From assembly GCA_019635775.1 (NCBI GenBank), contig JAHBYU010000002.1:186001-250000 (forward strand): 64,000 bases of DNA, read 5' to 3'. The position numbers and the translations under genes are program-made. A model generated the notes under the pieces. It was not told the DNA's origin. It did no database searches and saw nothing but the letters and a program-made list of their open reading frames with translations. The stretch is from Rhizobiaceae bacterium. Its GTDB lineage: Bacteria; Pseudomonadota; Alphaproteobacteria; Rhizobiales; Rhizobiaceae. This document shows, piece by piece, positions 27,184 to 33,839 of this stretch; within the stretch, counting starts at the first letter, position 1; every line of letters begins with the position of its first letter.

Positions 27184-28850
<1,667 letters not shown>

Positions 28851-28911
28851 CCGCCCGGCGTATCGACCGGGAATACCAGATCGGCGCAAAGCCGGCTGAC
28901 GAGGGGAAGTG

Positions 28912-29808
28912 ATGAGTCTGGACTGGGATAAGCTACGCGTGTTCCACGCCGCGGCGGAGGCGGGTTCGTTCACGCATGCCGCGGAGACTTTGCGCCTGTC
29001 CCAATCGGCGATTTCCCGCCAGGTCAGCGCCTTGGAGCATGATGTTGGCGTCCCGCTTTTCCATCGCCATGCGCGTGGTCTTGTTCTGACGGAGCAGGGC
29101 GAAATCCTGTTTCGCACGGCGCATGACGTGCTGATGAAGCTTGAAGCGGTCAAGAACCGGCTGACGGAGACGAAGGACAGGCCGTCAGGTGTGCTGCGTG
29201 TAACGACCACGGTTGGACTGGGGGCAGGGTGGCTGACACAGCGTCTCCACGAGTTCACCGAGCTTTTCCCGGAAATCAGCCTGCAGCTGATCCTCGCAAA
29301 CGAGGAACTTGACCTCACGATGCGCCAGGCGGATTGCGCACTGCGGTTGAGGCAGCCCCAGCAGCCCGACCTGATCCAGCGGCGGTTGTTCACCGTGCAT
29401 TTCCATCTCTACGCGTCGCCAGCCTACCTTGTGAAGCATGGGAAGCCGGAGTCGATAAACGACCTGAAGGACCACAGGATCGTGACCTTCGGGGTGCCTG
29501 TGCCTACCCATCTGAGCGAGCTTAACTGGTTAGAGACAGTCGGCGACTTTGAAAGCGGCCAGCGCGTCCCGACGCTCCAGATCAACGATCTTCTCTCGAT
29601 ACGGCGCGCAGTCCAGACAGGCGTGGGCATAGCCATGCTGCCCGACTACCTCATCGAGAAGGATTCCGGGCTGGTGCAACTGCTTCCTGAGACGGAAGTA
29701 CCGTCATTCGACACCTATTTTGCCTATCCGGAAGCCATGAAGGACCAGGCTAAACTTCATGCGTTCCGGGATTTCGTCATCTCGAAAGCGCGTAGCTGGT
29801 CCTATTGA
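28912..29808 (+). CDS. lsrB: LysR-type regulator of the LsrB/VtlR group
   Basis: Encodes 298 residues. The N-terminal winged helix reads LDWDKLRVFHAAAEAGSFT, LRLSQSAISRQVSALEHDVG, and the effector domain runs to the C-terminus. Length, opening residues and position after trxB match LsrB of Sinorhizobium and VtlR of Brucella. Those proteins are known to influence LPS, redox balance and, for VtlR, to activate an AbcR small RNA. An AbcR-like RNA lies directly downstream here. GAGGGGAAG precedes ATG 28912; a GTG three bases earlier is possible. The symbol rests on resemblance and context. Confidence 0.85.
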   Translation: MSLDWDKLRVFHAAAEAGSFTHAAETLRLSQSAISRQVSALEHDVGVPLFHRHARGLVLTEQGEILFRTAHDVLMKLEAVKNRLTETKDRPSGVLRVTTTVGLGAGWLTQRLHEFTELFPEISLQLILANEELDLTMRQADCALRLRQPQQPDLIQRRLFTVHFHLYASPAYLVKHGKPESINDLKDHRIVTFGVPVPTHLSELNWLETVGDFESGQRVPTLQINDLLSIRRAVQTGVGIAMLPDYLIEKDSGLVQLLPETEVPSFDTYFAYPEAMKDQAKLHAFRDFVISKARSWSY

Positions 29809-29866
29809 AGGGCGTCACTGCACCACAGATTTGCTTTTTTGCATGGGAGGTGTGCGAGAAGGATGC

Positions 29867-29895
29867 TTGTTCATTGGGCACAAAGCGCCCATATA
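29867..29895 (+). promoter_or_regulatory. Candidate promoter and LysR-type site of the AbcR sRNA
   Basis: TTGTTC (29867-29872) and CATATA (29890-29895) are 17 bases apart, close to the CTTGAC/CTATAT-like pattern of alpha-r15 promoters. TTGT (29867-29870) and ACAA (29880-29883) form an interrupted palindrome over the -35, a plausible place for LsrB/VtlR to bind. Confidence 0.55.
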
Positions 29896-29901
29896 ACAAT
29901 C

Positions 29902-30013
29902 ATCTCAAGGGCGTGTTCTCCTCCCATTAACGCTCTTGAGTGTTCCCCTCTGGAGGTTTTGCCTTTTGGCACTCCAATCAAACTCAGCCGGATCATTTGA
30001 TCCGGCTTTTTTT
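29902..30013 (+). ncRNA. abcR: AbcR-type trans-acting small RNA (alpha-r15 family)
   Basis: About 112 bases. The first stem pairs CTCAAGGGCGT with ACGCTCTTGAG (11 pairs) and exposes CTCCTCCCA in its loop, an anti-Shine-Dalgarno seed typical of AbcR motif M1. Next comes TGTTCCCCTCTGGAGG with TTTTGCCTTTTGGCACT, the second conserved block. The RNA ends in an AGCCGGATCA/TGATCCGGCT stem followed by seven Ts. AbcR RNAs act with Hfq to silence many ABC-transporter mRNAs. Position right after an lsrB/vtlR-like gene supports the call. Family assignment is from memory of the consensus. Confidence 0.85.
29986..30013 (+). terminator. Rho-independent terminator of AbcR
   Basis: AGCCGGATCA (29986-29995) pairs with TGATCCGGCT (29998-30007), then a T-run to 30013. 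It also closes any read-through from lsrB and faces the converging msrP gene. Confidence 0.9.
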
Positions 30014-31148: not shown

Positions 31149-33206
31149 CTAGGCCGCCTTGCCGCCCGCCTGCTGGCTCATCACCTGATCCGCCAGCCTG
31201 CCGGTCAGTTCCGCCATGTGGTCGAATGTCGCCTTGTAGGTGGCAACACCTGCTGTGGCCGAGCGCAACTCGATTATCAGGTCACCGATCTCGGCCTGCG
31301 GCATGGTGGCCTCCACGATATCCCAGCCGGGCCAACCAGGCCGCGCGTCGAATCCCAGAATTTGCCCGCGACGCTGTGGAATAAGCGCCGTGATGCGCGC
31401 CGTCGCCTCGGACGGTGTGGCGATCTCGACCTTCATGATCGGTTCGAGCAGCACGGGCGAACATTGCGCCATTCCTTCCTTCATGCCGAGCCGTGCCGCC
31501 ATCTGGAACGCCATGTCCGAGGAGTCGACTGCATGGTACGAGCCGTCGGACAGGTTCACCGCTATGTCCACCACCGGAAAGCCCAGCGGTCCCGATTTCA
31601 GGAAGTCGCGCACGCCGGCCTCCACGGACTGGATATATTGCTTCGGCACCACGCCACCCGTGATCGTGTCGGTGAACTGAAAACCCGAACCGCGGGGCAA
31701 CGGCTTTATCTCGAGAACGACGTCGCCGAACTGGCCGTGTCCGCCAGACTGCTTCTTGTGCCGGCCCCGTTGCGTCACACCCTTGCGGATGGTTTCGCGA
31801 TACGGGACGAGGGGCGGACGCACCTCGACTGGGATCTGGTTCTTGCCTTCCAGCCGTTCGACTGTGACGCGCAAATGCATTTCGCCATGGCCGGACAGCA
31901 CAGTTTCACCCGAGTCCTGGTTCTGGTGCAGGGTCAGCGACGGGTCTTCCTCGGCAAGGCGCTGGATTGCAGCCGACATGCGAACATCGTCCTTGCGTTC
32001 GCGTGGACGCAGGGAGAAGGCGAAGACCGGTTGCGGCGGTTCGAGCGCGACCAGTTGTTCGGTGCCGCCCTTTTTCGTGGAGAGCGTCTGCCCGGTCCGG
32101 ATGCCGTCAAGCTTGCCCAGCGCTACAGTTTCCCCGGTCGTGGCAGAGGCGGTCTTTGACTGGTCCTTTCCGAGCAGCCTGTATATTCCTGATATCCTTG
32201 CGCTTTCCGGCCCAGCAGCCCAGAGTTCAGTGCCATCCGTAACAGTTCCGGAAAGGATGCGGGAAACCGACAGCTTTCCGCCGTGCGGCGTATGGATCGT
32301 CTTCATCACCTGGATGATCGCGGTATCGCCGGCAGCGACGCCGAGACGGCTGCGCGTCATCTCGATGTCGGGTGCATCGTGCCGGATCGCCTTCAGGAGG
32401 CGAAGGACGCCGTTTCCCTTTTCCGCTGTGCCGATAAGGACGGGCGTCACTGAGCCGGCCCGGAGATCGGCTGAAAGGTCGTCGAAAACCTCGTCGCGGG
32501 GTGGCTCCTTCTCGTCCAGGAGCTGCTCCATCAGCAGATCGTCATGGTCTGCGAGCGTTTCCAGCATAGAGAAGCGCGCCTCGATCTCGCGCGCCTTTTC
32601 ATCGTCAGGAATCTCGGCAACCTCGCTTTCGGCGAAGTCACGCCAGACATAGGCCCGCTCCAGCGCAAGGTCTATGGATCCGACAACGGCGCCTTCCCGG
32701 CGCAGCGGTATCTGGCGCAGCAGGAGCGGTGTGGTGCTGACGGGTTGCAGGAGCTTCAGGGTATCGCGCACGCCGGCGGCGGTCCTGTCGATCTTGTTGA
32801 GGAAAAGGATGCATGGCACGCCGAGGTCGTCTAGCTTGCGCATGATGAGCTGAAGCGCGGGGATTTTCTTCTCGTCCGCCTCGGCAACGACGACGGCGAG
32901 ATCGCAGGCCGCCAGCACCGCATCCCCCTCGAAGGCGAATTCGATTGAGCCGGGGCAGTCGATGAAAGTCAGGCTTTCGCCCATGAAATCTATGGTGGCT
33001 ACAGAAGCCTCGACGCTCATCGCATGAGCCTTGGCCTCGGGAGAATGGTCGGAAACCGTATTGCCGGACGAGACCGGATTCTGGCGTGGAATTGTGCCTG
33101 TCCGGGCGAGAATTGCTTCAAGAAGTGTGGTTTTTCCGCTGGCGAAGGGACCGACGATGGCGATGCATTTCGGTCCCGTGCGTCTTCCTCCGGCGCGACT
33201 TCCCAT
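31149..33206 (-). CDS. EF-G-like translational GTPase paralogue
   Basis: Encodes 685 residues with the full five-domain EF-G layout. G1 is GPFASGKTT (residues 19-27) and G4 is NKID (137-140). The switch regions differ from canonical EF-G: G3 reads DCPGS (83-87) instead of DTPGH, so the catalytic histidine is a serine, and the switch I GITI sequence is absent. Domain IV keeps a GGHGQFGDV loop. It resembles EF-G2-type paralogues of unclear role. ATG 33206 is chosen because GGAGG lies eight bases upstream; ATG 33236 would fuse part of a repeat to the protein. Confidence 0.85.
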   Translation of the reverse strand: MGSRAGGRRTGPKCIAIVGPFASGKTTLLEAILARTGTIPRQNPVSSGNTVSDHSPEAKAHAMSVEASVATIDFMGESLTFIDCPGSIEFAFEGDAVLAACDLAVVVAEADEKKIPALQLIMRKLDDLGVPCILFLNKIDRTAAGVRDTLKLLQPVSTTPLLLRQIPLRREGAVVGSIDLALERAYVWRDFAESEVAEIPDDEKAREIEARFSMLETLADHDDLLMEQLLDEKEPPRDEVFDDLSADLRAGSVTPVLIGTAEKGNGVLRLLKAIRHDAPDIEMTRSRLGVAAGDTAIIQVMKTIHTPHGGKLSVSRILSGTVTDGTELWAAGPESARISGIYRLLGKDQSKTASATTGETVALGKLDGIRTGQTLSTKKGGTEQLVALEPPQPVFAFSLRPRERKDDVRMSAAIQRLAEEDPSLTLHQNQDSGETVLSGHGEMHLRVTVERLEGKNQIPVEVRPPLVPYRETIRKGVTQRGRHKKQSGGHGQFGDVVLEIKPLPRGSGFQFTDTITGGVVPKQYIQSVEAGVRDFLKSGPLGFPVVDIAVNLSDGSYHAVDSSDMAFQMAARLGMKEGMAQCSPVLLEPIMKVEIATPSEATARITALIPQRRGQILGFDARPGWPGWDIVEATMPQAEIGDLIIELRSATAGVATYKATFDHMAELTGRLADQVMSQQAGGKAA

Positions 33207-33226
33207 GATGCTGGCCTCCACTCTGG

Positions 33227-33307
33227 CGTTTCCCATTGAGCGGCGGCCGGCCTTCGGCCGTCGCGGGCGTTTCCAATTAGCGGCGGCCGGCCTTCGGCCG
33301 TCGCGGG
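33227..33307. repeat. Two tandem 40-41 base GC-rich repeats in the EF-G paralogue leader
   Basis: Copy one (33227-33267) and copy two (33268-33307) share GCGTTTCC and AGCGGCGGCCGGCCTTCGG, differing by a base change and a deletion. Each copy contains complementary CGGCCG segments able to form a very stable hairpin. On the minus strand they end about 20 bases before the start codon. Confidence 0.75.
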
Positions 33308-33440: not shown

Positions 33441-33839
33441 ATGAAGATCATGCCCTGCGGCAGCGTCGCCACGGTTCATCCGCCGGAGGCCTATTTTACC
33501 GGGCGGGTTATCCAGCAGCCCATCATAGAGGCAGAGGCACCAGCCCGCGTGCGCGCTGCACTCGTCAGTTTCGAACCAGGCGCGCGCACAGCCTGGCATA
33601 CCCATCCGCTGGGCCAGACCCTGCATGTCGTCTCTGGATCAGGTCTTGCGCAGGTCTGGGACGGTCCGGTCCAAGCGATCAAGGCGGGCGACGTCGTCTT
33701 CTTTCCGCCCGGCGAGAAGCATTGGCACGGAGCCGCTCCCACGACCGCGATGACACACATGGCGATCCACGAGGCGTTGGACGGCGTTCATGTAGAATGG
33801 CTGGAGAAGGTTTCCGACGAGCAATATTCCGCAAAGTGA
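33441..33839 (+). CDS. Single-domain cupin, hydroxynitrile-lyase-like
   Basis: Encodes 132 residues. The first cupin motif is [21 protein letters not shown] and the second is [20 protein letters not shown]; the metal ligands His, His, Gln and His are in place. The sequence is strikingly like the manganese cupins shown to have hydroxynitrile lyase activity in acidobacteria, and related to carboxymuconolactone-type cupins. The natural substrate is unknown. AAGGAG lies seven bases before ATG 33441. Confidence 0.8.

Follow-up and report, generated by a model that had tools for sequence, protein, structure and literature searches.

The question raised by this locus is whether the gap behind a LysR-type regulator gene encodes a small RNA of the AbcR type and, if it does, whether this RNA is controlled by its neighbor and what it might silence. 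The gap lies in a 64,000-nucleotide stretch of DNA from a bacterium of the Rhizobiaceae (the window), and an earlier note had proposed that it harbors an AbcR (alpha-r15, ar15) RNA forming a local module with the LsrB/VtlR-type regulator encoded upstream. In the reading that we favor, with a probability of roughly nine in ten, positions 29902-30013 encode a single-copy, trans-acting AbcR sRNA that would be activated by LsrB and would silence mainly mRNAs of uptake systems. The features of the locus are collected in Table 1.

Table 1. Features of the lsrB-abcR locus, with positions in the window.
Feature	Position	Strand	Remarks
trxB, thioredoxin-disulfide reductase	27678..28850	+	Longest ORF; likely start ATG ~27876
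lsrB ribosome-binding site GAGGGGAA, candidate feedback site	28901..28908	+	Exact complement of aSD2
lsrB/vtlR, LysR-type regulator	28912..29808	+	298 aa from ATG 28912; GTG 28909 also possible
Probable LsrB/VtlR box GCATGGGAGGTGT	29841..29853	+	Consensus GCAT-N3-TG-N3-T, 6/7 fixed bases
-35 element CTTGTT	29866..29871	+	Kept in 81/81 loci
-10 element CCATAT	29889..29894	+	17-nt spacer after the -35 element
AbcR (ar15) small RNA gene	29902..30013	+	Rfam RF02345, 49.2 bits; fold z -6.87; covariation
Stem-loop 1	29904..29940	+	11 pairs; aSD1 inside the loop
aSD1 CUCCUCCC	29918..29925	+	Same motif as published for S. meliloti
aSD2 UUCCCCUC	29943..29950	+	Same motif as published
Intrinsic terminator stem	29986..30007	+	9 pairs, then T run

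The AbcR finding was confirmed as real and correctly named by the covariance search that the earlier note had asked for. The ar15 model aligned over its full length (positions 1-112 of 112), scoring 49.2 bits where the curated cut-off is 40, and this was the sole gathering-level Rfam match in the 64-kb window. That the locus might instead hold something else, either a chance combination of stem-loop and terminator or an RNA of the ar14/NfeR1 or CcsR type whose anti-Shine-Dalgarno loop looks alike, could be argued from a weak match of the ar14 model to the same RNA (21 bits, below its cut-off of 58.8). This idea is refuted, and its likelihood is negligible, by the ar15 score, the presence of both AbcR motifs, the linkage to lsrB, and the position of the true ar14 copies, two of which score over the cut-off (86 and 84 bits) elsewhere in the same genome. 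NfeR1 is presumably itself an ar14-type RNA; ar14 RNAs share loop motifs of the CUCCUCCC type with AbcR but belong to another family model.

The architecture described in the earlier note, namely an 11-pair stem with a motif in its loop, a second conserved block and a terminator, was recovered in full by free folding of the RNA, which gave three hairpins: the 11-pair stem, a small second hairpin, and the 9-pair terminator stem followed by its T run. In this fold CTCCTCCCA lies within the loop of stem 1, which holds aSD1, and TTCCCCTC is unpaired, aSD2 being open between hairpins 1 and 2. The fold energy is -44.5 kcal/mol, and none of 200 shuffled sequences was equally stable. Conservation of pairing was examined in an alignment of 55 distinct RNAs, the window RNA among them, drawn from 87 lsrB loci of the family (two, L231 and L266, were shortened by the end rule). 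All five pairing measures exceeded those of all 500 shuffles and of all slid versions of the structure; standard pairs occupied 83.5% of the structure cells, and two-sided changes were found in 19 of the 29 pairs. Most of this signal came from helices 1 and 4, which correspond to stem 1 and the terminator; helix 2 had no pair with two-sided changes in this alignment and, like some single pairs, was poorly supported. The RNAalifold consensus of the same 55 sequences recovered most of stem 1 and proposed local pairing of the aSD2 stretch, and it did not recover the terminator stem; because the terminator region is raggedly aligned, the stated structure was counted instead. The window RNA is an unremarkable and well-conserved regulatory RNA of the AbcR type, and its host is Mesorhizobium-like.

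Only one ar15 copy over the cut-off was found in the genome of this bacterium (4.95 Mb, 36 contigs). A candidate for a second AbcR on contig C1 (777590-777690, 22.9 bits) was rejected, as it overlaps the two ar14 copies. Within the genus, three of four genomes carry one copy and the fourth carries two, and in the family a match over the cut-off was present in 167 of 247 sampled genomes. A second copy in a genome of the same genus (G298; locus L112, 1501-1592) has no LsrB box and adjoins genes that resemble, by eye, those for an ABC transporter ATPase and permease. As for the two ar14 RNAs of the window's own genome (L002, contig C1, ~777490-777773), they lie in tandem after a short open frame that by eye resembles DUF1127, about 90 nt upstream of which a GCAT-type box is matched on both strands. 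Since LsrB also activates NfeR1 in S. meliloti (PMC10746234), this ar14 pair may be a second LsrB target.

The earlier note had placed the RNA directly downstream of an LsrB/VtlR-type gene, and indeed 93 bases separate the end of that gene from the start of the RNA match. The encoded protein has the Pfam domains HTH_1 and LysR_substrate, and its best solved relative is PDB entry 9hh1 (465.6 bits, full length), a code that occurs in a paper on Agrobacterium LsrB (PMC11975290). Full-length similarity to LsrB and the position after trxB identify it, by sequence, as an LsrB ortholog. The trxB product was matched by NCBIfam TIGR01292 with 386 bits, over the cut-off, from residue 60 of the frame that opens at 27720. 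Beyond the RNA, msrP lies on the opposite strand; it adjoins a gene for an elongation factor G-like GTPase (31149-33236, NF009379 over cut-off), and at 33441-33839 there is a gene for a cupin protein, which exceeds the cut-off set for (R)-mandelonitrile lyase.

The arrangement was followed in 80 relatives, the top 80 when 341 encoding stretches were ranked by LsrB similarity, and thus close kin. Most of them bear the name Mesorhizobium, and Aminobacter and Pseudaminobacter are also represented; YM1C-6-2, which is among the nearest, is catalogued under Phyllobacteriaceae, Hyphomicrobiales. The host of the window is called Mesorhizobium-like on the strength of these resemblances. In all 80, trxB lies directly upstream of lsrB (gap 35-118 nt; one trxB is partial), and the RNA signature CTCCTCCC...TTCCCCT follows lsrB at a distance of 115-3452 nt. 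The gap between lsrB and abcR is about 0.8 kb in many of them, and in one such gap (L009, 4895-5740) a frame of about 165 aa seems to run on the opposite strand, the RNA and its box staying together. As to earlier records from this group, Mesorhizobium loti MAFF303099 is listed as a host genome in the legend to a supplementary figure of an S. meliloti AbcR paper (PMC3712013), and AbcR1/2 are stated to be undiscovered in Mesorhizobium huakuii 7653R (PMC5596092).

How the RNA might be controlled is suggested by the DNA upstream. The consensus published for the LsrB/VtlR box is GCAT-N3-TG-N3-T (PMC7486931), and in S. meliloti the box of abcR1 is reported at -61 to -49, upstream of CTTGAC-N17-CTATAT, the published alpha-proteobacterial promoter consensus (PMC8844928). 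The same interval, -61 to -49, is occupied by the probable box of the window if base 29902, the start predicted from the Rfam match, is taken as +1. The pattern GCATN3[TA]GN3T is found 76-78 nt before aSD1 in all 81 loci, that is, the 80 relatives and the window. The strict TG form is kept in 66 of them; the window has an A for T at one fixed base, a variant common to 15 of the 81. By comparison, the background density of the pattern, true sites counted in, is about 0.16 per kb of strand (217 occurrences in 1.396 Mb over both strands). GCATGGGAGGTGT is therefore likely to be the LsrB box of the window abcR, judging from its match and spacing.

The promoter-like pair pointed out in the earlier note exists, with CTTGTT and CCATAT set 17 nt apart, and the former is invariant among the 81 loci, even though a generic sigma-70 scan did not flag the pair. 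The TTGT-N9-ACAA palindrome that was said to overlap it does start at 29867, but it occurs in only 1 of the 81 homologous promoters; it is thus a chance feature rather than a conserved site, and was rejected as an LsrB site. The suggestion that the LysR protein would bind within 29860-29900 is accordingly probably wrong, the conserved box lying at 29841-29853. The broader proposal of a local regulator-sRNA module is supported, LsrB control being inferred from a conserved box that agrees with the published ones in both type and position.

Over the wider family, the arrangement is less regular. Among 87 lsrB loci, the RNA signature was found in 66, and 59 of these also have the box; the 7 others have the RNA without a box, and the remaining 21 have no signature in the downstream DNA examined (mostly 1.5 or 2.5 kb). 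The arrangement is thus not universal. When ar15 loci were instead collected with the RNA model (4 of 60 being left out, as they have no signature at the match), the box was present in 36 of 39 with lsrB in the examined DNA and in 10 of 17 without it, which indicates that the box is widely tied to AbcR and not peculiar to lsrB-linked copies.

These data bear on whether the RNA, while being a true AbcR, could escape its neighbor, the synteny being simply inherited and another factor, e.g., a stress sigma factor, driving transcription. In S. meliloti AbcR2 depends on RpoH1 (PMC8844928), and the four second AbcR copies examined (L087, L088, L095, and L112) have no box. One paper found no effect of LsrB on the S. 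meliloti AbcR RNAs under its conditions, and a positive effect was reported later (PMC8844928). Control by another factor nevertheless appears improbable for the window RNA, whose box sits at the published position and is kept, like the sigma-70-like -35 element, in 81/81 loci.

Activation by LsrB fits what is known of related systems. The closest counterpart is AbcR1 (alpha-r15, Smr15C1) of S. meliloti, which also lies next to lsrB, carries the same aSD1 and aSD2, and has an LsrB box at the same position in front of a sigma-70 promoter (PMC8844928). In contrast with S. meliloti, there is a single copy here and no tandem AbcR2, the gene beyond the RNA is msrP rather than one of the ArsR type, and LsrB has one cysteine instead of three (PMC11975290). 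Agrobacterium tumefaciens shares the order trxB-vtlR-abcR and the box consensus (PMC7486931), but has AbcR1 and AbcR2 in tandem and a VtlR/LsrB with four cysteines in two pairs (PMC11975290). In Brucella abortus the LsrB/VtlR ortholog similarly activates one AbcR, AbcR2, and the motifs M1 (CUCCCA) and M2 (GUUCCC) described there (PMC5461406) are both contained in the window RNA; the two AbcR genes of that species, however, reside on two chromosomes (PMC7486931). Control of AbcR by LsrB/VtlR is thus already published for three genera, and the window pair adds another example. What is gained is that the LsrB-to-AbcR module known from three model species is extended to a large Mesorhizobium-like group, in which the promoter architecture is near-fixed.

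In the mechanism that we propose, the LsrB protein encoded immediately upstream would bind the GCAT-N3-(T/A)G-N3-T box at 29841-29853 and, once bound, would turn on the sigma-70-type abcR promoter. The RNA would fold into its three hairpins, exposing aSD1 and aSD2, and these would pair with ribosome-binding sites, leading to the silencing of mRNAs mainly from solute-uptake systems. Transcription, LsrB binding, silencing, and the use of Hfq are all predictions for the window AbcR. The two motifs, described in S. meliloti as mRNA-silencing motifs (PMC8844928), are identical in the window RNA, letter for letter.

Predicted targets of aSD1 were sought in the genome of the window itself, where 23 copies of TGGGAGGA have an ATG 5-14 nt downstream, compared with 4 for the reversed control. 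After removal of 7 sites whose frames fall short of 100 aa and of 3 preceded by more than 100 open codons, 13 plausible starts were left, 7 of which belong to uptake-system genes (one ABC ATPase, three Peripla_BP_4, one TctC, one SBP, and one DctP). Two ordinary Shine-Dalgarno sequences served as controls. In the first, 30 of 43 sites were used and gave 15 frames of at least 100 aa, one of which was dropped; in the second, 30 of 95 sites were used and 7 kept, a solute-binding protein gene (L282) being dropped by the start filter and two channel proteins not being counted as uptake systems. Uptake genes amounted to 0/14 and 1/7 in these controls, or 1/21 when pooled, and the enrichment of these predicted targets behind aSD1 complements has, in what is a small test, a Fisher p of 0.002, or 0.006 if L282 is counted. 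The 4.95-Mb genome contains three copies of TGGGAGGAGAAC, the full 12-nt loop complement: one on the opposite strand of the AbcR gene itself, one at an ATG whose frame is just 28 aa long, and one that ends 3 nt ahead of the ATG of a gene for a DctP solute-binding protein (L163, C34:15479-15496). With a ribosome-binding site perfectly complementary to the AbcR loop over 12 nt, this DctP gene would be the best single predicted target.

A different kind of target is suggested by aSD2, as the ribosome-binding site of lsrB, GAGGGGAA, is its exact 8-nt complement (duplex energy -15.3 kcal/mol). AbcR may therefore switch down the gene of its own activator, closing a negative feedback loop in which pairing of aSD2 with this site would lower LsrB synthesis. 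Several observations argue for this loop. Of the 80 relatives, 64 have GAGGGGAA no more than 25 nt from the lsrB start. When an ATG or GTG is required in the next 10 nt, the 80 loci contain 64 such sites at lsrB and a single one elsewhere, or 64 and none if only ATG is considered. For the 56 purine 8-mers with five G, occurrences elsewhere in these loci average 2.3 (median 1), so that GAGGGGAA does not rank among their common site sequences. The columns of the complement outside the GGGG run are kept at 96, 96, 80, and 96%, and the flanks mostly at 52-75%, with three at 83%; the GGGG columns themselves are at 100% by construction, the alignment being centered on GGGG. For the ribosome-binding site of trxB, the start of that gene being assumed, the best 8-mer is present in 33 of 79 loci.

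Against this, translation by itself keeps a ribosome-binding site conserved, and aSD2 pairs with any site rich in G. The average conservation at fourfold sites of lsrB is 79%, and in 2.5% of random sets of eight such sites every member reaches 79% or more. In the wider family the exact 8-mer is present in only 27 of 87 loci, and in the 72 of the 87 that were scored, the pairing energy was reached by shuffled sites at median frequencies of 3.5% (closest band, 28 loci), 12% (19 loci), and 22% (25 loci). These energies come from short accessible stretches only; whole-RNA RNAduplex energies against 5' regions were left unused because they allow implausible bulges. Elsewhere in the genome, GAGGGGAA stands before 13 more ATGs (14 distinct sites in 16 rows, one of them lsrB; L316 was left out, and three open only 2-36 aa). 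The 9 frames of at least 75 aa among them, 4 of which have no Pfam match, include no solute-binding protein. Feedback on lsrB was not mentioned in the passages of LsrB/AbcR papers searched by term, and in PMC10746234 the feedback terms concern NtrBC only. Taken together, the loop is a tentative proposal, with the odds somewhat against it; if true, it would account for the way in which a regulator that has hundreds of indirect targets checks its own level.

The signal that such a circuit would read may also differ in this lineage. Agrobacterium LsrB has the cysteine pairs C144/C273 and C236/C244, of which C144 and C273 are common to the proteins of Agrobacterium, S. meliloti, and B. abortus; C273 is reported to be needed for H2O2 resistance, its replacement by Ser causing a sensitivity like that of the deletion (PMC11975290). 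The window LsrB has a single cysteine, C142, equivalent to C144; the other three positions are occupied by Val, Met, and Ala, the last of these at the C273 equivalent. A single cysteine is likewise found in 77 of the 80 relatives, the 3 others also having the C273 equivalent, and 32 of the 87 family loci have no such residue, so that its absence bears on redox sensing and not on orthology. The C144/C273 pair is a functional rather than a defining feature of LsrB. Among the 30 family loci with at least 84% LsrB identity, the C273 equivalent is absent in 22 and present in 8, and hence loss and retention are mixed. Since the RNA and the box are present together in 24 of 32 loci without the C273 equivalent and in 35 of 55 with it, the wiring is independent of this thiol. 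No mention of the loss of C273 in such proteins was found in the portions of the LsrB/AbcR literature searched.

With the C273 thiol lost in this lineage, the circuit would sense something other than peroxide through that disulfide. The combined proposal for Mesorhizobium and Aminobacter, a self-limiting LsrB-AbcR circuit in which aSD2 silences lsrB and, C273 being lost, peroxide is not read via that disulfide, is unlikely as a whole, slightly more so than the feedback loop by itself. Feedback and lost cysteine are leads and not results; the missing cysteine makes what LsrB senses directly testable across lineages.

Elsewhere in the family, the DNA behind lsrB can be organized differently. In one genome (L256), 12 [CT]CCTCCC motifs follow lsrB at regular spacing over about 1 kb, a row that is perhaps an array of anti-Shine-Dalgarno RNAs.
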